From a virus: 45,373 bases of DNA. The stretch is from the IMG/VR virus record IMGVR_UViG_3300043331_001319, positions 1 to 45,373 of that record. One strand, written 5' to 3'. The stretch's first letter is position 1; every line of letters starts with the position of its first letter. The translations under genes and the position numbers were made by a program. The notes beneath the pieces were generated by a model. It ran no database searches. It worked only from the letters and a program-made list of their open reading frames with translations, and was not told the DNA's origin. Below, one piece after another: positions 5,939 through 40,103 of the stretch.

Positions 5939-6582
5939 CGCCCGTGCCGCTCCAGGTACTTGGGCCAGCGCGCGAACACGTACCTCGGGTAGCGCGTGTT
6001 CTCGATCCAGAACGCGCGCTTCCTGCAGCTGCACGGCTCGACCTCGTCGGTGCTCCTCGGCAGGCCGCACTTCTTGTGCTCGCAGGCGAACGCTGCGGGC
6101 GACCCGTTGTAGATCCGGAGCGTGCAGAACCAGACCGGCCGGAAGCCATCGAACCGCGGTCCGCACCACTTCGCGTTCTCACGCATGAGCCACGCCTGCA
6201 GGCGGGCCGCGTGCTCCGGGTCACAGATGTTGCCCCGGAACCCCGACTCTCGCTCGACTCCGGCCTGCGTCTGAGGCATGAACTGCATCATCCCGCGGGC
6301 ACCGGCGGGACTCGTCACACACCGCCGCCAGCCGGACTCCTGCTCGACCTGCGCCAGCAGCAGGGTCGAGTAGGCCCGCTCGCCGTAGATCCGGACGTGC
6401 TGCTTCAGCACCACCTTCCAGTACTTCGCGTACCCGGACGGAAACCGCGGGTCGGCCGCCTCGGCTGCCTCAGCAGACGAACCGCACCCGGGAATCACCC
6501 ACAGGAACGTCACCAGCCAGCCGTAAAGGCACCGTGACAGCCACCGACGGACCTGGGTGGGGGTAGGATAGGGTTCAGCCAT
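5935..6582 (-). CDS. Lytic transglycosylase (endolysin) with lipobox-like signal
   Basis: A 215-residue SLT-type enzyme that would cleave the MurNAc-GlcNAc bond of peptidoglycan. Glu82 in QESGW is the predicted catalytic acid, followed by SPAGARGMMQFMPQT (91-105), a classic SLT signature, and LRIYNGSPAA. The N-terminus is a signal sequence (WLVTFLWVIPGCGSS) whose IPGC resembles a lipobox, so it may be exported and lipidated or membrane-tethered. ATG 6582 has AGGA upstream; GTG 6513 is an alternative that would leave the repeat at 6523-6574 untranslated. Many Cys residues suggest disulphides. It probably acts in host lysis with the neighbouring membrane proteins. Confidence 0.85.
   Translation of the reverse strand: MAEPYPTPTQVRRWLSRCLYGWLVTFLWVIPGCGSSAEAAEAADPRFPSGYAKYWKVVLKQHVRIYGERAYSTLLLAQVEQESGWRRCVTSPAGARGMMQFMPQTQAGVERESGFRGNICDPEHAARLQAWLMRENAKWCGPRFDGFRPVWFCTLRIYNGSPAAFACEHKKCGLPRSTDEVEPCSCRKRAFWIENTRYPRYVFARWPKYLERHGR
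6523..6574 (-). repeat. Operon-boundary repeat, copy C
   Basis: The minus strand carries CCTATCCTACCCCCACCCAG then GTGGCTGTCACGGTGCC and TTTACG. The second block matches copy A (39215-39268) at 22 of 23 positions. Here it falls within the first codons of the transglycosylase if ATG 6582 is used, or directly upstream if GTG 6513 is used. Confidence 0.65.
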
Positions 6583-6937: not shown

Positions 6938-7252
6938 TCAGGCTCGAACGGCCCCGACGACGGGCACGTACTGACGCGCCACGTGGGTTCCCGCTACATC
7001 GACTCGAACCCGGTAGTGGCGGTCCGCGACCAGCTCGGGAATCACCGGCAGGACACCGACATAGTCGCCATTCGAATCGTCGACGTATTCACACTCGATC
7101 GGCCCCTCGATCACGGTGTTCCCGTCCAGGACGGAGGCCGTCACCACGACCCCGCTGTTCAGCCACCGGTCGGCTCCGGTCTCTCCCTTGTCGGCGAGCC
7201 CGCGTGCCCGCACCACGTTCTCGTTGTCCAGGAACAACTTACCGACGCTCAT
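6938..7252 (-). CDS. Tail-associated hypothetical protein
   Basis: A 104-residue, beta-rich protein (VVVTASVLDGNTVIEGP; HYRVRVDVAGTHVARQYVPV) that looks like a single Ig-like or beta-sandwich domain. It overlaps the preceding 1107-residue gene by 4 bases, so it is probably co-translated and structural, for example a cap or accessory of that protein. No specific family recognised. Confidence 0.7.
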   Translation of the reverse strand: MSVGKLFLDNENVVRARGLADKGETGADRWLNSGVVVTASVLDGNTVIEGPIECEYVDDSNGDYVGVLPVIPELVADRHYRVRVDVAGTHVARQYVPVVGAVRA

Positions 7253-10200
7253 TCGACCAACACCTCCATCAAGACACGCGGACCGACCTCGGGGCTCATT
7301 CCTACTCTTCCCGATACACGAACCTCCATACCGACCCGCGGTCCGATCTGCACGGCCCCGATGACAGCTGCCTTGAGAGACTCGCCCACGAGCCCGGTCG
7401 ACGTGGTCGACAGGGCCGGCAGGAGGGCAGAGGCACTCCCTCCGACCTGGACGGTCCCCAGACTCGAACCCGCCAGCACAGGCAGATCGCCGTCGACCTC
7501 CCCGGTAACCGCCACACCGACGGTGGCGGTCGACTCCAGGCCGGGCAGCGTCACGGCTGCCGATCCGGAAACGTCGACGGACCCGACGGCCGTCGCGGCC
7601 AGAGCAGGCAGGTCGGCAGTGACCGTGCCCGAGACTACGACCACACCGGAGGCCACGGCTATCAGCGCTGGCAGGAACGCTTCAGCCTCGGCTCCGGCAC
7701 CTACCGTCCCCTCGGACTCCGACTCCAGGGCGGGAAGCGCTTCGTCGGCCTGGCCCTGGACGGCAACCGCACCCGAAGCCGACGCCTCCAGGGCCGGCAT
7801 GAGCCCGTCCGACTCTCCCTGAACCGCAACTACGGCTTCCGCCTGCGACTCCAGCGCAGGCAGCACACCAGCCGACGACCCGTCGATCGCGACGGACCCA
7901 GACGCTTCAGCTCCCAGCTCGGGCAGAACAGCAGCAGCAGAGCCAGCGACCTCCACCTGCGCCGTACCGGTCGCGGTCAGCGCGGGCAGTGTTACGTCGG
8001 CGGCTCCCTCGACGGCCTCCGCCTCGTAGACGTCGTACTTGGCGTTCAGGTACTCGACGACGCCGTCCAACTCGGCGTCCGTCAGCTCGCGGTTGTAGAA
8101 CGCCAACTCCGCGATGTCGATCCGCGAGTAGTTGTCCTGCGCGGCCGACGGTGCGATCCGGCTCCCAATCCGGTAGTCCACCACGCCGGCCGTTTCCGCG
8201 CTGACCGCGCTCGGGAAACTGGAGACCACCTGCTCGTCCCCGTTGACGCGGAAGGCGGTGGCGTCCGCGGCGTGGTCCACCCGCCAAGCCACGATCACGA
8301 ACTGGTCGTCGGGGACCGTCAGCGCATCCGCGCCGTCATGGTTGGGAGTTGAGCGAACGTCGAACAGGGCCACGTCGCCCACGCCGGACACGTCCTCGCG
8401 GGTCGAGAACCACGCTCGGTCGGCGTCGCTCGTCCGCGGCTGGAAGACGATGTCGCGGTCGTCGATCGGGCCCGCCCCGCGCGCCTGCATCACCGCGATG
8501 AGCGTGCAGCCGTTCCCCGCGTAGCCGAGGACCGGGTTGACGTTGTCGAAGGTCAGCTCGTCGTTGCTGCCGTCGAACCGTACGGCCGGCTTGGCGTTCA
8601 CCAGGTTCGTCTTGAGGAGCGGTCGGGCGGTACTGGTCCCGACGAACGGGCCGGGGTTGCGCGCGATGTTGGGCCACGAGTCCACCGGCGTGTCGTCGGC
8701 CAGGTTGCCGAGCGTCTCGTCGGCCGCGAGCCACATGGTCAGGCCGGCCACGTCGTCGGGGCGCAGGCCGGCCCCGTCGTGCGCGGGCCGGATCGCGTAG
8801 GTGACCGCACGCCAGATCACGCTGCCGCTCAGACCGAACGAGGCGGGGTCCTCGGCCAGCACCTCCGCAGGTCTCCACGCCGTCCCCATCTCCGCGCTGG
8901 ACGCGCCGCCCGTGCTCGTATCGTGCGCGGCCTTGCTGTAGCCGCTCGGGTAACTGTTGATGCTGAAATCAGCGGACGCCGCGCAGATCGCTAGCCACAG
9001 CACCTTTTCCTTCGCCAGTATCGGCGGGTCCAGGTTCGGCGGGTCGGCCGTGGCGCTGGTACCCGTCGCGGAGGCCCCGAACTCCACCCGCCCGTTCTTG
9101 ACGCGGAACGTCCGCCACACGCCCTGCTCAGCAGCACTCAAGCTGAGCGTGAACGTGCCACTCTCCCCGCCCTGGGCCACGTACCACGCGACGATGACAC
9201 GCGCATCGGTCCCGGAGCCGTGCCATGTCCAGACCCAGCCGTCCGGTAGAGTGGGAGTAGGGCCGCCGTCGGGCGCGGCCACCAGGACGACCTGGTCCCC
9301 CGCCTCCAGGTTGCTGGGCCACTCCGGCGACCACGAGTTACTGTCGCTGTTAACGGCCCCGCTCTTGGTGTCCGCCGTGACGACGTACGGGAACCCGATC
9401 GCGTATTCGACCTCCAACTCAATGGACGGGATGACGATGGTCGGGTTCGCGTCACTGGAGAGGAGCCCGAACGCCTCCAGCGCGTTCGGGCCGACGCCGT
9501 TCAGGTCGTCCGGCGTCCACGCCACGCCCGACTTTGGATTGTTAGCCCAGACCTCTAGCCGGTTCTCCAGCGCCGCGTTGATCGGGTTGTAGGACCCCTG
9601 GGCGTAGTAGTTGCCGCCTACCTTGATCCGGCACTGGATGTTGGCCGCCCCGGTCCCGTTTTTCTTGTCGATCCAGCGCACCATCACGCGCCGGATCGCG
9701 GCGTCAGGGGGAACCGACAGGGCCGAGAAGCCGAACGTGATATTCCCGGCCGTCGTGCCGTGCGTGAGAACGTCCGCCTCGCTCCAGTCCTGGTGGTCAT
9801 CGACCGACTGGTAGCGGGTCCCGGCCGAGCCGGTCCATGTCCCCGACACAGCCTCGTCGGAAGTCGGGGCGCGGCGGGCGAAGATGAGATCGTTCCGGAA
9901 GGCGACGATGCTGGTGGTGCCGGTATCGCCGCCCAGCGTCGCCTGCCGGTTCGTCACATCACCCGTCGGACCGGCCGTCGCCTGGACCTTGTACGCGATC
10001 GAGAGCGACTGGTCCGAGCCCGCGAGGTTCCGCCAGTGGCTCACCCCGCCCGGTTGCGACCAGCCCGCCGTCTGGAGCGCCCAAGTGTTATCGTCTACAG
10101 ACCCGAACACGACGAGCACGAGTACGTTGTCAGCGGTGGTCGTGATTCCCGCTTGGGTTACGTCAAATGGGCTTGCGGGAGCTGTGTACCCCTGTCCCGT

Positions 10201-10572
10201 CCGCTCTACGTCCAGTGCCCAGTCAAGATCGGCGTCCTCGGGGTCCCACACGCCTAGGAACAGCTGCAGCGCGGTGCCCGATGCGCACGACATCACCGGA
10301 TCGGCCGTCCAGGTGCCATTGAACTTGCACCACAGGATACGATGGTGGCTGTTAGAGGATTGACCCTGCGTGTCGTGTCGGAACCAAGTCTGACCGCCCG
10401 CCTCGGTCAGGATGAGCGGATTGGTGTTCTGCGCCGACCGCGAGTGACCGACGAGCACGGCGAGCTGTCCGGCCACCATGTTCGCGGGTGGCGTGACCGA
10501 CACGCTCGTCGCGGCCCCCGGATCGGTGTTGTCCGCCGGCGAGATCGCAAAGCCGAATTCGGCGATCGGCAC
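7249..10572 (-). CDS. Large tail/fibre protein with LamG-like domain and ten 21-residue repeats
   Basis: An 1107-residue protein. The N-terminal half consists of beta-rich, Gly/Ser/Thr/Trp-rich modules, including two segments that look like repeated beta-sandwich domains (PPANMVAGQLAVLVG near the start and WPSNLEAGDQVVLVA near 420). A LamG/concanavalin-like domain follows (about 620-850, from GLTMWLAADETLGN to YNRELTDAELDGVVEYLNAK). Residues 856-1065 are ten tandem 21-residue units with core LPAL, then a short Val/Arg-rich end. Such proteins usually bind host surface glycans as fibre or tip components. It lies after the spike gene and is the largest tail gene after the tape measure. Confidence 0.8.
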   Translation of the reverse strand: MPIAEFGFAISPADNTDPGAATSVSVTPPANMVAGQLAVLVGHSRSAQNTNPLILTEAGGQTWFRHDTQGQSSNSHHRILWCKFNGTWTADPVMSCASGTALQLFLGVWDPEDADLDWALDVERTGQGYTAPASPFDVTQAGITTTADNVLVLVVFGSVDDNTWALQTAGWSQPGGVSHWRNLAGSDQSLSIAYKVQATAGPTGDVTNRQATLGGDTGTTSIVAFRNDLIFARRAPTSDEAVSGTWTGSAGTRYQSVDDHQDWSEADVLTHGTTAGNITFGFSALSVPPDAAIRRVMVRWIDKKNGTGAANIQCRIKVGGNYYAQGSYNPINAALENRLEVWANNPKSGVAWTPDDLNGVGPNALEAFGLLSSDANPTIVIPSIELEVEYAIGFPYVVTADTKSGAVNSDSNSWSPEWPSNLEAGDQVVLVAAPDGGPTPTLPDGWVWTWHGSGTDARVIVAWYVAQGGESGTFTLSLSAAEQGVWRTFRVKNGRVEFGASATGTSATADPPNLDPPILAKEKVLWLAICAASADFSINSYPSGYSKAAHDTSTGGASSAEMGTAWRPAEVLAEDPASFGLSGSVIWRAVTYAIRPAHDGAGLRPDDVAGLTMWLAADETLGNLADDTPVDSWPNIARNPGPFVGTSTARPLLKTNLVNAKPAVRFDGSNDELTFDNVNPVLGYAGNGCTLIAVMQARGAGPIDDRDIVFQPRTSDADRAWFSTREDVSGVGDVALFDVRSTPNHDGADALTVPDDQFVIVAWRVDHAADATAFRVNGDEQVVSSFPSAVSAETAGVVDYRIGSRIAPSAAQDNYSRIDIAELAFYNRELTDAELDGVVEYLNAKYDVYEAEAVEGAADVTLPALTATGTAQVEVAGSAAAVLPELGAEASGSVAIDGSSAGVLPALESQAEAVVAVQGESDGLMPALEASASGAVAVQGQADEALPALESESEGTVGAGAEAEAFLPALIAVASGVVVVSGTVTADLPALAATAVGSVDVSGSAAVTLPGLESTATVGVAVTGEVDGDLPVLAGSSLGTVQVGGSASALLPALSTTSTGLVGESLKAAVIGAVQIGPRVGMEVRVSGRVGMSPEVGPRVLMEVLVE
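7378..8007 (-). repeat. Ten tandem 63-bp coding repeats (LPAL units)
   Basis: Inside the 1107-residue protein, ten consecutive 21-residue units follow the pattern G-x5-LPAL-x5-G-x-V-x-V. Units include VTLPALTATG, GVLPALESQA, GLMPALEASA, EALPALESES, AFLPALIAVA, ADLPALAATA, VTLPGLESTA, GDLPVLAGSS and ALLPALSTTS. Unit length is constant, while the variable positions differ freely, suggesting an old, structurally constrained solenoid rather than a recent expansion. Confidence 0.9.
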
Positions 10573-21801: not shown

Positions 21802-22011
21802 CTACCGCATCCGGCGGGCATACTTCCCGCCGGTGTGCTCGCGCAGCTTGATGTGCCGCTGCATGTCGGCTTCGACGAACGAGGTGAACGGACACGTCTT
21901 GCACTGGAACAAGTCGTGACCCGCCCACTCCGCCTTGCCGTAGCCGTTCTTGCCGCCGGACTCCGACTTCGTCGCACCCACCGGATCCACGGCATCCTCC
22001 TTCTTGGCCAT
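21802..22011 (-). CDS. Small C2H2-type zinc-finger protein
   Basis: A 69-residue protein from ATG 22011 (GAGGGAGGGC upstream, TGATG overlap with the preceding stop). After a Gly/Lys-rich N-terminal half, CKTCPFTSFVEADMQRH and IKLREH give C-x2-C-x12-H-x5-H, a C2H2-like finger. It is unusual between head-tail joining and tube genes. It may bind DNA at the portal or regulate expression; both are guesses. Confidence 0.75.
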   Translation of the reverse strand: MAKKEDAVDPVGATKSESGGKNGYGKAEWAGHDLFQCKTCPFTSFVEADMQRHIKLREHTGGKYARRMR

Positions 22012-22589
22012 CAGCCCTCCCTCCTGAAGCGTCTCTTCATCTCCGTGTCCGCCCCGGCTGCGAACCACTCGGTCGTACCGTACGCCGGGAGCGGCATCGT
22101 GCAGAGCGCGGACTCCTTGTGCGCCTTGAACTTGATGCCGCGTCCGCGTGCCAGGCCCAGCAGATACTCCAGGTTCGGGCGCTGGTACACGTACTCCTCG
22201 ACTTCCAGGACGTTGATCCCGAACAGCAGGATCAGCTCGGGCTCCCGCACGATCGCCAACGCCAGCATATAGCTCGCCGACGATACGAAGTACGGCCCGC
22301 CGATCAGGTTCTCGACCATCACCATCGGGTAGACGGTCGCCTTCGGGAGCGACGGGATCCGTCTCCGCACGACAACCGACGGGCCCGCCTCGCGCAGCTG
22401 GGCGGCGTACACGGCCGGGTTCACACCCAGGTACGACCTCCAGATGTCGGGGTCGTGCATCTCGAAGATCCGATCACACCGCGGCATCCACCGCCAGTGT
22501 CGACCCATCCCCCAGATCTCGACATCGGGATCGTCGTACGGCGCATCCTTCGCACCCAGCCCGCAGCCCACCAGCACGATCGTTCTCAT
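22011..22589 (-). CDS. Rossmann-like protein of the DUF115/MptE-like type
   Basis: A 192-residue protein starting MRTIVLVGCGLGAKDAPYDD, a nucleotide-binding-like beta-loop-helix. EIWGMGRHWRWMPRCDRIFE and FEMHDPDIW follow, then SSASYMLALAI and ELILLFGINVLEVEEYVYQR. These phrases recall the DUF115/MptE-like family that occurs in many phages without known function; related bacterial proteins act in surface glycan or pseudaminic-acid transfer to flagella. ATG 22589 has GGAGAGCG; the earlier start at 22631 would run through a hairpin and is rejected. Confidence 0.65.
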   Translation of the reverse strand: MRTIVLVGCGLGAKDAPYDDPDVEIWGMGRHWRWMPRCDRIFEMHDPDIWRSYLGVNPAVYAAQLREAGPSVVVRRRIPSLPKATVYPMVMVENLIGGPYFVSSASYMLALAIVREPELILLFGINVLEVEEYVYQRPNLEYLLGLARGRGIKFKAHKESALCTMPLPAYGTTEWFAAGADTEMKRRFRREG

Positions 22590-22600
22590 CGCTCTCCAGT

Positions 22601-22659
22601 CTTTGGGGCGGGGCGTCCCTGACTGGTCCATGGCCCACGCCCACGCCCCAGGACGGGCC
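22601..22659 (-). repeat. Boundary-repeat-like box and hairpin before 22011-22589
   Basis: The minus strand reads GGCCCGTCCTGG (22659-22648), one base different from the box in copies A, D and E, followed by GGGGCGT...ACGCCCC, a 7-bp stem with about 22 bases between the arms. It fills the 87-base gap between the tail terminator-like gene and the MptE-like gene. The CCAC tract of the other copies is absent. Confidence 0.45.
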
Positions 22660-29410: not shown

Positions 29411-29466
29411 CGTAGGAGCCTCCAGGAAGCCACGAACGGACCCGGGTGGTAGGTGGATGAGGATCG
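29411..29466 (-). repeat. Operon-boundary repeat, copy B
   Basis: The minus strand reads GATCCTCATCCACC, then TACCACCCGGGTCCG and GTGGCTTCCTGGAGGCTCC. The first part matches copy A, and the second is a diverged form of the GTGGCTGT block. ACCTACC here and GGTAGGT nearer the gene (29398-29404) form an inverted repeat. It lies in the 80-base gap between portal and MuF genes. Confidence 0.55.
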
Positions 29467-32265: not shown

Positions 32266-33774
32266 TCAGTGCACCCCCACGAACTGATCCGCGGGCCGAC
32301 CCTGTCCGGCGCGGTGGGCACGGAACAGCTTGGCCAGCGCTTCGAACCCGAACGCGGCCGCATCCACCTGGTCGTCGTGCGCGCCGTTCGGGAACGCCAG
32401 GTGCTCATCACGGAAGACGGCGTGCGACGAGCCGCTCCACGGCAGATCCACCATCCGGTAGTTGCCGACCTCCCACTGGGCGGCGTAGTTCTCCGCTCTC
32501 AGCTCCTTCGAGCCCGACGCCGGCAGGACGTGCGCATTGAACCCGCTCATCATCGTCACGAACTCGATCTCGCGCTCCTTCCCGCTCGCGCCGCCCTCCT
32601 TCTGTCCAATCTGGATCACCACTCCGTACTCCTCAGCGTCCCGTTCTGCGGTGGCGACCATGATGCGGTCGCGCTTCCCCGGTCCCCACTGTCCACGCAC
32701 CACGTCCACCACGTAGTACAGGCCGGTCAAGACGTCCACCGCCCCCAGCACTCCGACCGTGTAGTCGCCACCGTTCTCGGTCGCCGCCTCATCCCAGGAC
32801 CGCACGTAGTAGACGTGCGCTCCGCGCGGCGCAGCGGGCACTCTCCGCTCTCCGAACCACTCCAGCTTGAACTGATTCCCTTCACGGGGGACGGGCCGTT
32901 GCTGGTACAGGCTGCTCCACGTGTACGATGACGACGAGCCCCGGATTCTCTCCAGCGCCTCCTCGTCGTACCGCTCCGGGCACAGCGCGTCACCCTCCTC
33001 CCGCCAGTCCTCCACCGGGAGCACGTTTTCGGGCAGCACCTCATCCACGGGCTCGTGCAGGGCGTCGAACCGCATCAGGTACCAGAGTTCGTTCCGCTCG
33101 GCGGCGTTCTCCATCACCATCCCGGCCAGGTCTGACTCGTGCCAGCGGGTCATCACCAGCACCACCGCTCCATCGGGCTCCAGCCGCGTCTGCAGGGTCG
33201 AGTCGTACCACTCCCACTGCTGCTGACGGAACCGCTCCGACGCCACGTCCTTCTCGTTCTTGACCGGGTCATCGATGATCGCCAGGTGCGCCCCGCGTCC
33301 GGTGATCGGACCACCGACACCAGCTGCCCACATCCCGCCACCCTGGGGCGTCGTCCACAGTCGGACCGCCTCCATGTCGAGCTGCCCACCGCCCTCAACG
33401 TAGATCGCGCGTGCTCGGCGGCTGAACTCGAACGCCAGGTCGGCACCGTACGAGGCCAGCCCCACCCACCGCTCGGGGAACCGGTGCAGGTAGTACGCGG
33501 GCAGCATCCGGCTGAACGTCTCCGACTTGCCGTGTCGGGGCGGCATCAGCACGATCAGCCGCCGGATCTCCCCGCTCACCACGCGCATGAAGATCTCGGC
33601 CGCGTGCCGGTTCACGTCGAACCACCGGAACCGCGGGTTCGCCCGCTTCGCCCAACCGATGATCGGCTCGCGCTTCCGCTGGAGCCGCTCGATCAGGTCT
33701 CTGTTCTCGGGGAGCAGGAGCTTCCGCTGGACTCGTGAACGGAGCTCTTCGATCCTCTCGGGCCGTGCCGCCAC
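32266..33774 (-). CDS. Terminase large subunit
   Basis: A 502-residue packaging ATPase and nuclease. Walker A is PPRHGKSE (78-85), Walker B LAIIDDP (164-170), and the coupling motif VVLVMTRWHESD (204-215). The C-terminal RNase-H-like nuclease shows SWDEAA (Asp328) and HDDQVDA (466-472) as metal-binding acidic residues. It docks on the portal, translocates DNA and cuts concatemers. The GTG start follows the small terminase gene by six bases. Confidence 0.95.
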   Translation of the reverse strand: MAARPERIEELRSRVQRKLLLPENRDLIERLQRKREPIIGWAKRANPRFRWFDVNRHAAEIFMRVVSGEIRRLIVLMPPRHGKSETFSRMLPAYYLHRFPERWVGLASYGADLAFEFSRRARAIYVEGGGQLDMEAVRLWTTPQGGGMWAAGVGGPITGRGAHLAIIDDPVKNEKDVASERFRQQQWEWYDSTLQTRLEPDGAVVLVMTRWHESDLAGMVMENAAERNELWYLMRFDALHEPVDEVLPENVLPVEDWREEGDALCPERYDEEALERIRGSSSSYTWSSLYQQRPVPREGNQFKLEWFGERRVPAAPRGAHVYYVRSWDEAATENGGDYTVGVLGAVDVLTGLYYVVDVVRGQWGPGKRDRIMVATAERDAEEYGVVIQIGQKEGGASGKEREIEFVTMMSGFNAHVLPASGSKELRAENYAAQWEVGNYRMVDLPWSGSSHAVFRDEHLAFPNGAHDDQVDAAAFGFEALAKLFRAHRAGQGRPADQFVGVH

Positions 33775-33780
33775 CGCGGC

Positions 33781-34371
33781 CTACTTCCGGCCGTTCTCAG
33801 AGCGCTCGAACAGGATCCTGTCGAGCGTTCTCAGCTCCTCCTCGTCCATGGCATCGACATCGAGCGGCACCTCACGAGTCTCGATCGGACCGCCATCGGC
33901 TCCGGTATGCTCGTGCCGATTCACCTCACGCCAGCCCGCCTGCGTCTTCAGGTAGAAGATCTTCGCCGTCAGGTTCCCGCCTCGGCCGCAGTGTTCGCAC
34001 ACCCCCGACGTGGCGTCCGAGTAGAGGCTCGTGGCGACGGTCATGATCGCGGTCGCCTTGCCGGCTTTATACGCTGCCATTAGCAGCGGGTCCTCGTCCA
34101 GCCGCCGGAACATCGTCCGTTCGCTCAGCCCGAAGTAGTCAGCCAGCTGCTCCAGCGTCAGGACTGCCGCGAGCCGCTCGACCCGCGCTCGGTCACCTTC
34201 CGAGAACGTGCCGTCCTCGTTCTCCAGGTTCCCGCGGGCTCGCGGCCTGCCGTTCGCGGTGGACACGGCGCCCTCGCGGTGGGCGGCACACAGGCTCTCG
34301 CCGTCAGGGCTCGGCTTCTTGCAGGGTCGCCCGCTGGCCGTCCGACCGCCGAGGTCGCCGCAGGTGATCAC
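33781..34371 (-). CDS. Terminase small subunit-like DNA-binding protein
   Basis: A 196-residue protein directly before the large terminase. Residues 1-30 carry a Cys/His cluster (CGDLGG, CKKPSPDGESLCAAH) that may bind zinc; residues 70-92 are a helix-turn-helix (LTLEQLADYFGLSERTMFRR); a CEHC follows near 124 and NLTAKIFYLKTQAGWRE is typical of small terminases. It would recognise the packaging site and load the large subunit. GTG start, 4-base overlap. Confidence 0.8.
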   Translation of the reverse strand: MITCGDLGGRTASGRPCKKPSPDGESLCAAHREGAVSTANGRPRARGNLENEDGTFSEGDRARVERLAAVLTLEQLADYFGLSERTMFRRLDEDPLLMAAYKAGKATAIMTVATSLYSDATSGVCEHCGRGGNLTAKIFYLKTQAGWREVNRHEHTGADGGPIETREVPLDVDAMDEEELRTLDRILFERSENGRK

Positions 34372-34955
34372 CGTTCGGGGAACAGCCCCATCTGCTCTTC
34401 CACCACATCGTCCAGCTCACCCGCCACCCGCGGATAGAGCGCCTTGTACTCGTCACGCAGGAAGTCCGCCTTCGTCATCCCGCGCATCCGACCCTCTCGT
34501 GTGTGCACGTCGTACGCGTACTCCGGGATCTCGGCTCGTTCCTGCCGCGCGTCCAGCAGGTCCTCGTCGACCACGGCCCGATCCACGAGCTCCCGATCGT
34601 ACAGGAGCACGGCGGCGTGGTCGGCGTCCCGGCTCTTCCGGCACAGGGCGAGCATGATCGCGGCCTTGGCTACGAACACCCGCCCACCCTTCGGTCCCTT
34701 CTTGACCTTCGTCACCTCGCGCCACCCCTCGGCGAGGGCGAGGACCTCCTTCGTGATCACACCGAAGCAGTCCTCAGCGGAGATCGTCAGGGCTCTCCGC
34801 CAGAAGTACGGTCCGTACCCGCTGACCGCCATCTCCAGCCCCCAGTACGAGGCCATCTTGGCGTCTCCGCGGCGGACCGCCTTCTGCAGCGCCGACGCGA
34901 CCTCGAACAGGTTGTATCCGCGGTCGGTCTTCGCCTCGAAGCGTCTCTCGGCCAC
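34368..34955 (-). CDS. Stand-alone RarA/MgsA C-terminal domain protein
   Basis: A 195-residue protein that aligns by eye with the C-terminal domain of RarA/MgsA/WHIP AAA+ proteins, without the ATPase part. FEVASALQKAVRRGDAKMAS, YWGLEMAVSGYGPYFWRRAL and TISAEDCFG match the S-x-KS-RG...YW...GEDP...RR...ASED pattern, and HTREGRMRGMTKADFLRDE matches its end. In RarA this part mediates oligomerisation and SSB or fork interaction, so the phage protein may modulate host RarA or replication-fork repair. GTG 34955 has GGGAGGAAAC; the open frame to 35213 is rejected. Confidence 0.75.
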   Translation of the reverse strand: MAERRFEAKTDRGYNLFEVASALQKAVRRGDAKMASYWGLEMAVSGYGPYFWRRALTISAEDCFGVITKEVLALAEGWREVTKVKKGPKGGRVFVAKAAIMLALCRKSRDADHAAVLLYDRELVDRAVVDEDLLDARQERAEIPEYAYDVHTREGRMRGMTKADFLRDEYKALYPRVAGELDDVVEEQMGLFPER

Positions 34956-35014: not shown

Positions 35015-35752
35015 CTACCCTCCGGGCTGTCTGCGCGGCACGTTGATCTTCGTCTGATAGATTCCCTTGCCCATCCGCATCGACACGAACCGACCCCACT
35101 TCTCCTTCACTCGGGCCTCGTCCCGGGCCACCCGGGCGGTCGAGCGGAACAGCGTGTCCCCGCCCGCGTTCGTCTCCTGCTTCTGAGCGAACAGATACCT
35201 CCGCTCCACCCACACGATGCGGTCCTTCAGCAGGTGCTGCAGCGCGAAGTCCACCGAGTACCTGGTCCGCAGCATGTCATCGAGCCGGTACTCCCGGCCG
35301 ATCACTCCCATCACCCCGCCGCCGCAGCGGCCGCTCAGCTTGAACGGGTCAGTGTCCTGGAACTTGCGACGGTCGAACGCCTCGTTGAACCCGAACAGCG
35401 TCACTCCGACGTCGTACGCACAGACGGTCGTGACCTCCAGGACGTGCAGGATCTCATCCCTGGTCAGCCACCGCCCGCGGTCGTACCCGGCACCGATCGA
35501 GAAGCACCCGCTGATGTCGTCGTCCATCAGAATCAGGCACTCGTCCTCGAAATGGTCCAGGCACCAGTTCGAGACCGCCGCACCCCCCTCGTACTCGTCC
35601 GGGATCGGTACCAGATCTTCACGGCCGGTCAGCTCCTCGTACAGCTCGACCTCGCTCTCGGGAACGACAATCGTCGCCGACGGGATCACGCGGTGGGTGG
35701 TCATCGAGTCGGACCGGCCACGACTCCGGATCACGATCCGGTGCAGGCTCAC
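35015..35752 (-). CDS. TAGT-like glycosyltransferase (candidate DNA base modification)
   Basis: A 245-residue GT-A-type protein. RIVIRSRGRSDSMTTHRVIP (5-24), ATIVVPESEVELYEEL (26-41), and LMDDDISG with the DDD metal motif at 77-79 match TET-associated glycosyltransferase-like enzymes of phages, which are proposed to add sugars to modified bases in DNA. Later it has SVDFALQHLLKDRIVWVERR, a helix-rich C-terminal half. It overlaps the ParB-fold gene upstream by 4 bases, a pairing reported for hypermodification loci. No TET/JBP dioxygenase is seen in the window, so the modified base and substrate are unknown. Confidence 0.7.
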   Translation of the reverse strand: MSLHRIVIRSRGRSDSMTTHRVIPSATIVVPESEVELYEELTGREDLVPIPDEYEGGAAVSNWCLDHFEDECLILMDDDISGCFSIGAGYDRGRWLTRDEILHVLEVTTVCAYDVGVTLFGFNEAFDRRKFQDTDPFKLSGRCGGGVMGVIGREYRLDDMLRTRYSVDFALQHLLKDRIVWVERRYLFAQKQETNAGGDTLFRSTARVARDEARVKEKWGRFVSMRMGKGIYQTKINVPRRQPGG

Positions 35753-36441
35753 TCCTTCAGCATCCCCAGCACCTGCGAGCCCTCGACCACGCGGCCCAGG
35801 CCCAGCGAGCCCTGCTTGTGCGGGATCAAGACCTTCCGGAGACCGAACTTCTCGACCGCGTTCAGCCAGTCACGCTGGTCACGGAACACTAGCACGATGT
35901 AGTCGTAGTGCTCGTATGCCCGCAGGTCCATCTCGTCGGGTCCGCCGGTCTCCTTCTCAGCTGCCTTCTGCGCGCGGCTCAGCATCTTCTCCATGTCCGA
36001 CCGTCGGAACCCGGTTCCCTCGACTCCGCTCCGCTCGTCGATCTCCTGGAGGAGGGCCAGCAGCAGGCCCTCGTCGCCCCAACCGCCCAGCTCGACCAGG
36101 CGGTTGTCGGCGATCACGTACGCGCCGTGCTCGTCGTCCTCGATGTACACGCCGCGGACGACGGGCACCAGCCACTTCGGGCCCTCCTTCTGGATCCCGT
36201 CGGGCGGCGGCGCGCCAGCCGCCTGGAGCGCCTCCAGGGTCTCCACTCGGCCGTGGCCCACCAGCAGGTGGCCGTTCGTCTCGTTCACGATCACCGGGTT
36301 CACGAACCCGAACCGACCGAAGCTCGCTCGCAGGGCGCTGACGTCGTGGTCCTTCGGATTGCGCGGCCACTTGGCGATCTCTTGCAGGTCCAGGTACTCG
36401 ATCGACAGCTGGCGGCCGTTCTCGGTCTTCTTCGTCTTCAT
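35749..36441 (-). CDS. ParB-like nuclease-fold protein
   Basis: A 230-residue protein with an N-terminal ParB/Srx domain. NPKDHDVSALRASFGRFGFV (28-47), PVIVNETNGHLLVGHGRVET with the GHGR motif (62-65), LEALQAAG and VIADNRLVELGGWGDE are characteristic. Such domains occur next to phage DNA-modification enzymes. The C-terminal half contains a strand-rich segment (YDYIVLVFRDQRDWLNAVEK). ATGA overlap with the gene upstream and GTGA with the glycosyltransferase gene downstream. Confidence 0.85.
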   Translation of the reverse strand: MKTKKTENGRQLSIEYLDLQEIAKWPRNPKDHDVSALRASFGRFGFVNPVIVNETNGHLLVGHGRVETLEALQAAGAPPPDGIQKEGPKWLVPVVRGVYIEDDEHGAYVIADNRLVELGGWGDEGLLLALLQEIDERSGVEGTGFRRSDMEKMLSRAQKAAEKETGGPDEMDLRAYEHYDYIVLVFRDQRDWLNAVEKFGLRKVLIPHKQGSLGLGRVVEGSQVLGMLKE

Positions 36442-36863
36442 CGACCGAGCAGCCCGCGGACTCGCCTGCCAACCGCCCGCACAGGACTCTCCTCGTCCTC
36501 GATCTCGAACTCACCCTCGTGCGTCTTCACGCGGCGCTTGTAGTACGGCGGGCCGGTCAGCGCGATATCAAGGTCGGCGGAATGCGTGCCCGGCAGCAGG
36601 ACCTCGAACCCGCTCTCGTCGACCCCGGCATGCAGCGGATCGTGCCGCAGCGTCATCCCGCGCAGCATGCCCTTGAACTGCCAGTCGCGGCTGATCACCA
36701 GCACCTCCTGCGGCAGGTGCGGGAAGTCGGGCCCACTGCCGCCCGCGTATCGTTCGGGCGACCTCTCGGCGATCGAGCCCAGGTACTTCTGCAGGTAGGA
36801 CGGCGGAGCCAGCAGCGCCAGCGACGCCGCCGACGCCTGCACCAGGAAGTGTCGTCTCTCCAC
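36438..36863 (-). CDS. Hypothetical protein with Tat-like or signal-like N-terminus
   Basis: A 141-residue protein from GTG 36863, which lies just past the upstream stop and puts VERRHFLVQASAASLALLAP at the N-terminus: a twin-Arg followed by a moderately hydrophobic stretch, like a Tat signal. An earlier ATG at 36893 is possible. The remainder (DFPHLPQEVLVISRDWQFKG; EVLLPGTHSADLDIALTGPP) is beta-rich and ends in charged residues. No family recognised; export is a hypothesis only. Confidence 0.65.
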   Translation of the reverse strand: MERRHFLVQASAASLALLAPPSYLQKYLGSIAERSPERYAGGSGPDFPHLPQEVLVISRDWQFKGMLRGMTLRHDPLHAGVDESGFEVLLPGTHSADLDIALTGPPYYKRRVKTHEGEFEIEDEESPVRAVGRRVRGLLGR

Positions 36864-36865
36864 TC

Positions 36866-36994
36866 TCAGCCTCGCTTCCTCTTCTTGCTGCATCGGCCTG
36901 CGTGCAGCACCAGCTCCTTGGACGTCATCATGAACTCGCGCTTGCAGTGTCGGCAGCGTCTCGGCTTGGCGATCCTCGATTCACCCGCCTCCAC
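36866..36994 (-). CDS. Tiny zinc-finger protein (42 aa)
   Basis: From GTG 36994, overlapping the previous stop, 42 residues: VEAGESRIAKPRRCRHCKRE, then FMMTSKELVLHAGRC, giving C-x2-C-x13-H-x3-C, a CCHC finger, with a basic tail (KKRKRG). The open frame reaches 37081 but is Arg/Gly-rich shadow there. Probable nucleic-acid-binding mini-protein. Confidence 0.65.
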   Translation of the reverse strand: MEAGESRIAKPRRCRHCKREFMMTSKELVLHAGRCSKKRKRG

Positions 36995-38896: not shown

Positions 38897-39214
38897 TCAG
38901 ACAAGCCCCTCGGCGAACAGGCGCGCCAGACGCGCCGCCTCGGCCTTCAGGTCGACTCCGTACCGACGCTCGTACGTCTCCTGGCCGCCGGTCTCGATCC
39001 GATCGTGACAAGGTACGCAGACCGGCGCGCAATCGGAATCCTTGCCCTTCACCCCGCCCATCCCGCGGGCGCTCGTGTGGTGCGGCACACACGGCCTCCG
39101 ACCGCACCCGGTACAGCTCATTCTCCGACAGAGCGCTGCCTGCCGACCGAACTGACGCTCTCGGAGTCTCTTCCGGCGCCTTGGATTGACGGGCGGAAGG
39201 GTGGAATGGCTCAC
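38897..39214 (-). CDS. HNH endonuclease
   Basis: A 105-residue protein from GTG 39214. A basic N-terminal region (NPRRRKRLRERQFGRQAALC) precedes an HNH fold: MSCTGCGRRPCVPHHTSARG, then CAPVCVPCHDRIETGGQE. CTGC and CVPC bind structural zinc; the His pair in VPHH and the His in CHDR are the probable catalytic histidines. It could be a packaging-associated or homing-type nuclease. The open frame to 39373 runs through the boundary repeat; GTG 39214 directly after that repeat is preferred, though no Shine-Dalgarno is obvious. Confidence 0.8.
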   Translation of the reverse strand: MSHSTLPPVNPRRRKRLRERQFGRQAALCRRMSCTGCGRRPCVPHHTSARGMGGVKGKDSDCAPVCVPCHDRIETGGQETYERRYGVDLKAEAARLARLFAEGLV

Positions 39215-39294
39215 GTAAAGGCACCGTAACAGCCACAAACCCGACCGGGTGGTAGTGGGATGAGGGTCCGGGGACGATCGGACCTGGACGGGCC
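39215..39294 (-). repeat. Operon-boundary repeat, copy A
   Basis: The most complete copy. The minus strand reads GGCCCGTCCAGG (39294-39283), a hairpin GGTCCG/CGGACC, CATCCCACTACCACCC, and GTGGCTGTTACGGTGCC then TTTAC directly before the HNH start codon. It shares its first box with copies D and E, its pyrimidine tract with B, C and D, and its last block with C. Confidence 0.65.
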
Positions 39295-39308: not shown

Positions 39309-40103
39309 TCACAGCTCGGCCAGCGCGCCTGTCCGGCGACCCTTGTTGTAGAGGGCGACCAGCATCTCGGCACCCAGCCGCGGGATCGTCCCCTTCTTCA
39401 AGTCGCGCATGGACTTGGCTCGTCCCACGAAGCCCGCCGGACCGCCCGGCAGCTTGGCCATCTTCTTCACCAGGGACGACGTGTTCGCTTCCTCACCGTA
39501 GGCGGCCAGGAAGATCGCCACCGCCTCGATCACGTTGCCGTCCATGGCCGAGCGCTCGGATCCCCAGGCCGCCTTCACGATCTCCAGCGTCTCGGCCAGC
39601 ACCTCGGGCCCCTCGGCGGCTCCGTTCATCCGGTACACCTTCTGCAGGGTCCGGACACAGGTCAGCACCCCGTCTCGCTTCGAGCCCGACACCTGGAGTC
39701 CCGCCTCCTGCACGATCTCGTCGATCGCCAGACACTCCTTGTCGCCCTGCACCCGCCCGGCATGGAAATCGTCGAACGGGGACGGCTTGTCGAACTTGTT
39801 CAGCAGCCGGAACATGTGCGCCTCGTCCTTGATCGTGAGGCCCTCGTACACCTTGCAGTCCAGCACCCAGTCCCCGAACCCGTGGAACTCCAGCGCCGCC
39901 ACCCGGTGCTGACCGTCGATCACGACGTAGTCGCCGTTCTTCCGCTTGGCGACCGTCACCACCCCCAGGCCGTCCAGGTCGAGCTCGTTGGCGAGCTTCT
40001 TCACCCGGCTCGCTTTCAGGCCCCGCTGGTACTCCGCCGCTAGCTTCAGCGTCGACGCCTTCAGCCTCATCATCTTCGACTTGTGGCTACTCAGCTTGTC
40101 CAC
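39309..40103 (-). CDS. ParB-like domain protein
   Basis: A 264-residue protein. Residues 20-95 form a ParB/Srx domain: EYQRGLKASRVKKLANELDL, VVTVAKRKNGDYVVIDGQHR (DGQHR 63-67) and VAALEFHGF. The C-terminal part is helical (MFRLLNKFDKPSPFDDFHAG; VLAETLEIVKAAWG). Phage proteins of this type may bind or nick DNA, but catalytic activity is not established here. The start overlaps the upstream gene by 17 bases (GTG 40103). Confidence 0.8.
   Translation of the reverse strand: MDKLSSHKSKMMRLKASTLKLAAEYQRGLKASRVKKLANELDLDGLGVVTVAKRKNGDYVVIDGQHRVAALEFHGFGDWVLDCKVYEGLTIKDEAHMFRLLNKFDKPSPFDDFHAGRVQGDKECLAIDEIVQEAGLQVSGSKRDGVLTCVRTLQKVYRMNGAAEGPEVLAETLEIVKAAWGSERSAMDGNVIEAVAIFLAAYGEEANTSSLVKKMAKLPGGPAGFVGRAKSMRDLKKGTIPRLGAEMLVALYNKGRRTGALAEL

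Follow-up and report, generated by a model that had tools for sequence, protein, structure and literature searches.

A TAGT-family glycosyltransferase that travels with ParB-like and RarA C-terminal-like proteins beside phage terminase genes: a candidate DNA glycosylation cassette

A viral record from IMG/VR carries, just upstream of its terminase genes, a cassette of three genes encoding a ParB/Srx-fold protein, a TAGT-family glycosyltransferase and a stand-alone protein resembling the C-terminal domain of RarA/MgsA. The same three genes recur together in other phages and in bacterial genomes, and we consider it probable that they form a module for the post-replicative glycosylation of phage DNA. 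A role in DNA hypermodification had been proposed in an earlier, sequence-only reading of this DNA; genomic context and the homology of the glycosyltransferase to T6 Ggt make this putative role well supported, while DNA as the acceptor is, like the sugar and the roles of the ParB-like and RarA-like proteins, something that we infer.

Organization of the locus

The window, the whole stretch of DNA analysed here, is a complete copy of the virus record as deposited (45,373 bases, linear, genome completeness unstated), with a GC content of about 67% and nearly all of its genes on the minus strand. A near-identity DNA search of the window against known phages gave no match. The ParB, TAGT, RarA-like and both terminase genes lie in one tight stretch, the features of which are as follows.

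36438-36893, minus strand: 151-aa gene that shares 4 bp with the start of ParB; no Pfam or PHROG match
35749-36441, minus strand: ParB/Srx-fold gene, 230 aa, with a second, C-terminal domain common to relatives
36247-36258, minus strand: ParB nucleotide-binding-type motif G62-H-G-R65, from residue conservation among 42 relatives
35015-35752, minus strand: TAGT-family GT-A glycosyltransferase gene, 245 aa, with a GTG start within the ParB stop
35516-35524, minus strand: catalytic-type DDD motif (D77-D79) of the glycosyltransferase, from conservation in 47 relatives
34368-34955, minus strand: stand-alone RarA/MgsA C-terminal-domain-like gene, without an AAA+ domain, from PF12002 and profile matches
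33781-34371, minus strand: terminase small subunit gene (phrog_309, 2.8e-16), with a 4-bp overlap with the RarA-like gene
32266-33774, minus strand: terminase large subunit gene (phrog_38, 1.4e-87; PF03237)

The ParB-like and glycosyltransferase genes overlap by four bases, as the sequence-only reading had noted; the shared bases are GTGA (35749-35752). The pair that it described is real, but it missed a third conserved gene, encoding the RarA C-terminal-like protein; the unit exceeds the ParB-TAGT pair and takes in 34368-34955. The GC3 values of both the ParB-like and the glycosyltransferase ORFs are of the coding type, and a ribosome-binding-like GGGAGG precedes the GTG at 34955 of the RarA-like gene; ORF length alone is no proof of coding here, as the shuffled region yields open frames of up to 402 aa. 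The position of the 151-aa gene by itself suggests that it belongs to the same operon as ParB.

Elsewhere in the window, a 55-base stretch is present in three copies that are 65-75% alike (6522-6576, 29411-29465 and 39214-39268), two of which encode a similar short peptide (PTPTQVRRWLSRCLYGW and PTTTRSGLWLLRCLYV). ARAGORN calls a tRNA-Trp at 9448-9518 (plus strand), antisense within a 1107-aa ORF (7249-10572); this call is probably a false positive.

The three proteins and their linkage

The ParB-like protein matches phrog_620 (2e-31). The window protein alone falls below Pfam ParB_N, but a 42-member profile (the window protein and 41 relatives) matches structures of Spo0J, ParB and Noc (1e-11 to about 1e-14) and, weakly, sulfiredoxin and a free serine kinase. 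The AlphaFold model (pLDDT 85) leads Foldseek to ParB-CDP (6sdk), PadC and, more weakly, Srx. G62 and R65 are 98% and 95% conserved among 42 relatives, and the C-terminal domain carries an EHYDYIVL...DW...GLGR pattern common to relatives. By its sequence and predicted fold, the protein is a member of the ParB/Srx superfamily, the assignment originally made from its motifs. Among isolated phages, Microbacterium phage MementoMori has its closest counterpart, gp1 (41% identity), the partner of which is a TET. A second ParB/Srx-like gene lies in the window away from the cassette (39309-40103, minus strand; PF20188, DUF6551, 2e-22; phrog_1033, 8e-25).

The glycosyltransferase belongs to TAGT, a family reportedly named or defined by Iyer et al. 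in 2013. It scores above the cut-off of the Pfam TAGT profile PF20691 (34.2 bits versus 27.5) over domain positions 3-205 of 205, which confirms by HMM the family named in the sequence-only reading, and it matches phrog_842, 'beta-glucosyl-HMC-alpha-glucosyltransferase' (4e-13). A PDB sequence search gave no match for this protein; the best PDB matches of its AlphaFold model (pLDDT 92) in Foldseek are GT-A enzymes, including WrtF and TarP (TM about 0.5), which act on sugars or teichoic acid. The predicted structure is a GT-A fold with an acidic metal/nucleotide motif. In 47 relatives, S10, R13, D77-D79 (98% for D77, 100% for D78 and D79), R178 and G197-G198 vary little or not at all, and the retention of these DDD, S/R and GG motifs argues for selection on catalysis. 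Alignments A7 and A8 proved too heterogeneous to be searched for patterns, and A13 took their place.

T6 Ggt aligns by hhalign with the window-type TAGT profile at 97% probability and 54 bits, against only 20 bits for the TET-type profile, and it keeps the V-x-E-x-E, IPD...G, DDD and GG regions of the window-type profile at an identity of only about 20%. The T6-type TAGT is held to be likely responsible for the second glucose on glucosylated hmC DNA (2026 paper, PMC13390438). Ggt is thus assigned to DNA glucosylation in a phage whose acceptor is made without TET, indicating that members of the TAGT family can act on DNA without a TET.

The protein encoded at 34368-34955 reaches 24.9 bits against PF12002, just below the cut-off of 27, which is passed by a relative in locus L001. 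The profile of its family matches the RarA C-domain structures 2r9g (3e-11) and 3pvs (1e-8), and the homology extends over most of the C-terminal domain of RarA/MgsA/WRNIP1, whereas the window protein lacks their AAA+ domain. The family has 15 invariant columns across 44 relatives; its invariant R30, R110 and D113 face other residues in 2r9g. Two loci encode a RarA-like protein about twice the usual length, with an apparent internal duplication (L101, 7980-9185; L081, 7298-8404), and have 0.7-1.3 kb between ParB and TAGT. More distant RarA-C-like genes, often in tandem pairs, are found in loci L109-L116, mostly from Oscillospiraceae assemblies; these are chromosomal, without TAGT or ParB, and they were set apart from the cassette because TAGT is absent and their neighbours are housekeeping genes. 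In two other loci, an AAA+ ATPase gene immediately precedes the RarA-like gene (L006, 6328-7092; L007, 11811-12563), like a RarA split in two. This arrangement and the RarA homology itself would be expected if the three proteins acted on a replication or packaging structure, the RarA-like protein serving as a fork factor with ParB, and if the glycosyltransferase were inactive or acted on RNA or small molecules; we regard this as most unlikely, given that the motifs of the enzyme are kept in its 47 relatives.

To assess linkage, the RarA-like protein served as the sole query against viral contigs. This query retrieved 65 viral loci (these and the following counts are not of independent events, because some contigs are near-copies of one another), with all three genes in 52, TAGT in two, ParB in one and the query alone in 10; where both flanks reached 2.5 kb or more, 31 of 33 loci had the three genes. 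All of the 10 closest loci in bacterial genomes hold the three genes, and 15 more distant ones do not; the carriers are assemblies of Bacteroidota, Bacillota, Planctomycetota, Chloroflexota and Acholeplasmataceae, and include the isolate Hymenobacter translucens BT175. The reverse search, with window-type TAGTs, gave 23 loci, 18 with three genes and five in which ParB and TAGT stand without the RarA-like gene; for two of these five, the contig ends right at TAGT. In 74 of 75 loci, TAGT comes after ParB, an order that makes a chance pairing untenable, and in 67 the TAGT frame is open by the time the ParB stop is reached. The complete genome of the Microbacterium phage Teamocil has the three genes in the order ParB, TAGT and RarA-like, with a UDP-glucose dehydrogenase-like gene between the last two; matches to both TAGT and the RarA-like protein are present in 56 Microbacterium phage records. 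Glycosyltransferase and UDP-glucose dehydrogenase genes receive a passing mention in the published account of these phages (PMC7302621). The cassette is found in phages whose hosts have very different envelopes.

An enzyme that glycosylates virion proteins (capsid or tail), with the ParB-like and RarA-like genes merely co-inherited, would suit a cassette that adjoins packaging and structural genes, and the closest solved folds of the glycosyltransferase do act on carbohydrate polymers. Capsid glycosylation by phage-encoded enzymes is, moreover, known in actinophages. Virion proteins nevertheless seem unlikely targets for an enzyme that is fixedly linked to two nucleic-acid-type proteins, is homologous to T6 Ggt and belongs to a family present in TET operons.

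Acceptor-making enzymes and related systems

Neither the window nor its relatives yielded an enzyme that would make a hydroxyl acceptor. A profile of five actinophage TETs, which finds the TETs beside TET-type TAGTs at about 1e-8 to 1e-156, had no match in the window, in the records of six relatives or in complete Teamocil. Pfam Tet_JBP (PF12851) and Thymidylat_synt found nothing in these sequences or in 45 further carrier records; Tet_JBP, the less sensitive model for these phage proteins, was the sole whole-record model on these 45, and the five-TET profile found none on their fetched flanks. The sequence-only reading had seen no TET or thymidylate-hydroxylase partner, and these searches agree with it. 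PF00303 (dCMP/dUMP hydroxymethylase family) is absent from the window and from more than 50 other records, with the positive control matched in nine genomes. Within the window, no other oxygenase source, no DNA methyltransferase and no que genes were found. As contigs are often fragments, the absence of TET from any one of them is weak evidence, and what counts is complete Teamocil, the tree and the size of the record set.

Searches with TET-type TAGTs (Acadian, Altadena and Klevey) yielded 14 loci, with TET in 14, ParB in 13 and a RarA-like gene in none. In a tree of 61 TAGTs, the 49 window-type and 12 TET-type proteins are split with 100/100 support, and the window glycosyltransferase, as judged from its sequence, does not group with the TET-linked TAGTs; T6 Ggt, when added, falls on the window side, though on a long branch. 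The window record is linear and of unstated completeness, and an ORF runs off its right end, so an ordinary TET-TAGT system could be envisaged, with its oxygenase or other hydroxymethylating enzyme supplied by the host or encoded on genome sequence that the record lacks. The lack of a TET profile match in complete Teamocil, of Tet_JBP and Thymidylat_synt matches in the 45 further carriers, and of any mixing between the two groups of TAGTs makes such a system improbable. The sequence-only reading also implied that a TET or aGPT-Pplase partner might be encoded beyond the window, an expectation that fails for TET, since this TAGT group is without TET in every locus and record searched, including complete Teamocil.

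The slot upstream of the terminase in phages is occupied by ParB and a swappable modifying enzyme. In Stinger and MementoMori, which share this slot with the window cassette, the enzyme is TET alone. Gordonia phage Wooper and Rhodococcus phage Tonitrus have ParB-TET-ADDT-kinase in the same slot and with the same tight, ParB-led packing, but with an amino acid:DNA transferase and an hmU-type kinase where the window has TAGT and the RarA-like gene. Acadian, Altadena and Klevey have ParB-TET-TAGT(-PIG-L), with ParB upstream of TAGT as in the window, and in Acadian the row ParB-TET-TAGT-PIG-L directly precedes the terminase genes; TET is present and RarA-like absent in this type, whereas the window type is the reverse and its TAGTs form a separate group. 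CRB2 carries ParB-DpdA with preQ0 genes upstream of the terminase (PMC6392294), and the ParB-like ATPase DpdB is reported to power the insertion of preQ0 into DNA (PMC12839542). In CRB2 and the DpdA/DpdB 7-deazaguanine systems, as in the window, a ParB-superfamily partner adjoins the base-modifying enzyme, which is a base-exchange enzyme in DpdA systems but a glycosyltransferase in the window. T6 has a homologous glycosyltransferase and also makes its acceptor without TET; however, its ggt adjoins the dCMP hydroxymethylase gene 42, which has no equivalent in the window, and no ParB or RarA-like gene was seen in the ggt stretch. The comparison of this slot is the main reason for reading the ParB-like protein as a DNA-handling partner and DNA as the acceptor.

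The proteins MementoMori gp2 (L012, 642-1595), Stinger gp2 (L021, 776-1744) and Acadian gp2 (L117, 813-1691) bear the RefSeq name 'queuine tRNA-ribosyltransferase', which is also found in several related mycobacteriophage records. MementoMori gp2 was ruled out as a DpdA partner: it is a TET/JBP-type dioxygenase, matching PF12851 at 2.2e-7 (30.7 bits versus a cut-off of 34.9) and containing HRD, HGVTP and YRVS motifs common to phage proteins annotated as Tet-like. Given the five-TET profile and Tet_JBP matches, the queuine name of these actinophage dioxygenases looks wrong. In Synechococcus phage S-CBWM1 (L119, 3729-6061), TAGT adjoins a gene whose product, named 'putative SNF2 DNA repair protein', matches the TET profile, and genes for phosphoheptose isomerase and sugar nucleotidyltransferase come next; this is possibly a heptose-type hypermodification locus without ParB.

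Sugar supply and proposed function

In at least 10 loci, TAGT and the RarA-like gene are separated by a gene for a short UDP-glucose/GDP-mannose dehydrogenase that has only the NAD-binding and central domains, and PIG-L, WbqC-like and epimerase genes recur beside the cassettes of relatives; no sugar-tailoring genes were recognised in the window itself. The presence of PIG-L next to TET-type and window-type TAGTs alike suggests that some loci use GlcNAc-type sugars. Three further candidates were examined and rejected: the window ORF at 22011-22631, considered as the missing Rossmann/UGDH gene, has no family match; Wooper gp5 has no similarity to the Teamocil UDP-glucose dehydrogenase; and a putative sulfotransferase in L001 (8250-9032) was dropped, as its Pfam matches are sub-threshold and it overlaps other ORFs. 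The recurrence of sugar-tailoring genes near relatives' cassettes would also fit a glycosyltransferase that acts on glycans of the host surface, or on some other component of the cell, against superinfection, with UGDH, PIG-L, WbqC and epimerase making the sugar. We consider this very unlikely, because it leaves the ParB and RarA-like partners unexplained, the same cassette is found across hosts of very different envelopes, and PIG-L also adjoins TET-TAGT.

If the cassette glycosylates DNA, as we favour, TAGT would take the sugar of a nucleotide sugar and attach it to a base of phage DNA or to a group borne by such a base. By analogy with DpdB, the ParB/Srx protein would be an NTP-dependent DNA-handling partner that guides TAGT to DNA. 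In the place of TET, the third member or extra subunit would be the RarA C-terminal-like protein, and our guess is that it may be an oligomerising scaffold tethering the enzyme to replicating or packaged DNA. More tentatively, the cassette may represent a widespread TET-free system that reaches glycosylated DNA by a new route, a possible though rather doubtful scheme in which the RarA-like protein, with its invariant charged block, would prepare the acceptor, or TAGT would glycosylate a base lacking a hydroxyl made by TET or a hydroxymethylase. We found no nucleoside analysis of any carrier of the cassette.

Although the TAGT family takes its name from an association with TET, one large branch shows no TET and travels with a RarA C-terminal-like protein. 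This branch is found in phages and prophages from Actinobacteria, Bacillota, Bacteroidota and other groups, with isolated Microbacterium phages among the carriers. If the cassette does glycosylate DNA, there would be an unrecognised way of creating the attachment point for the sugar, with a bearing on the escape of phages from restriction and CRISPR, and on DNA-labelling enzymes.
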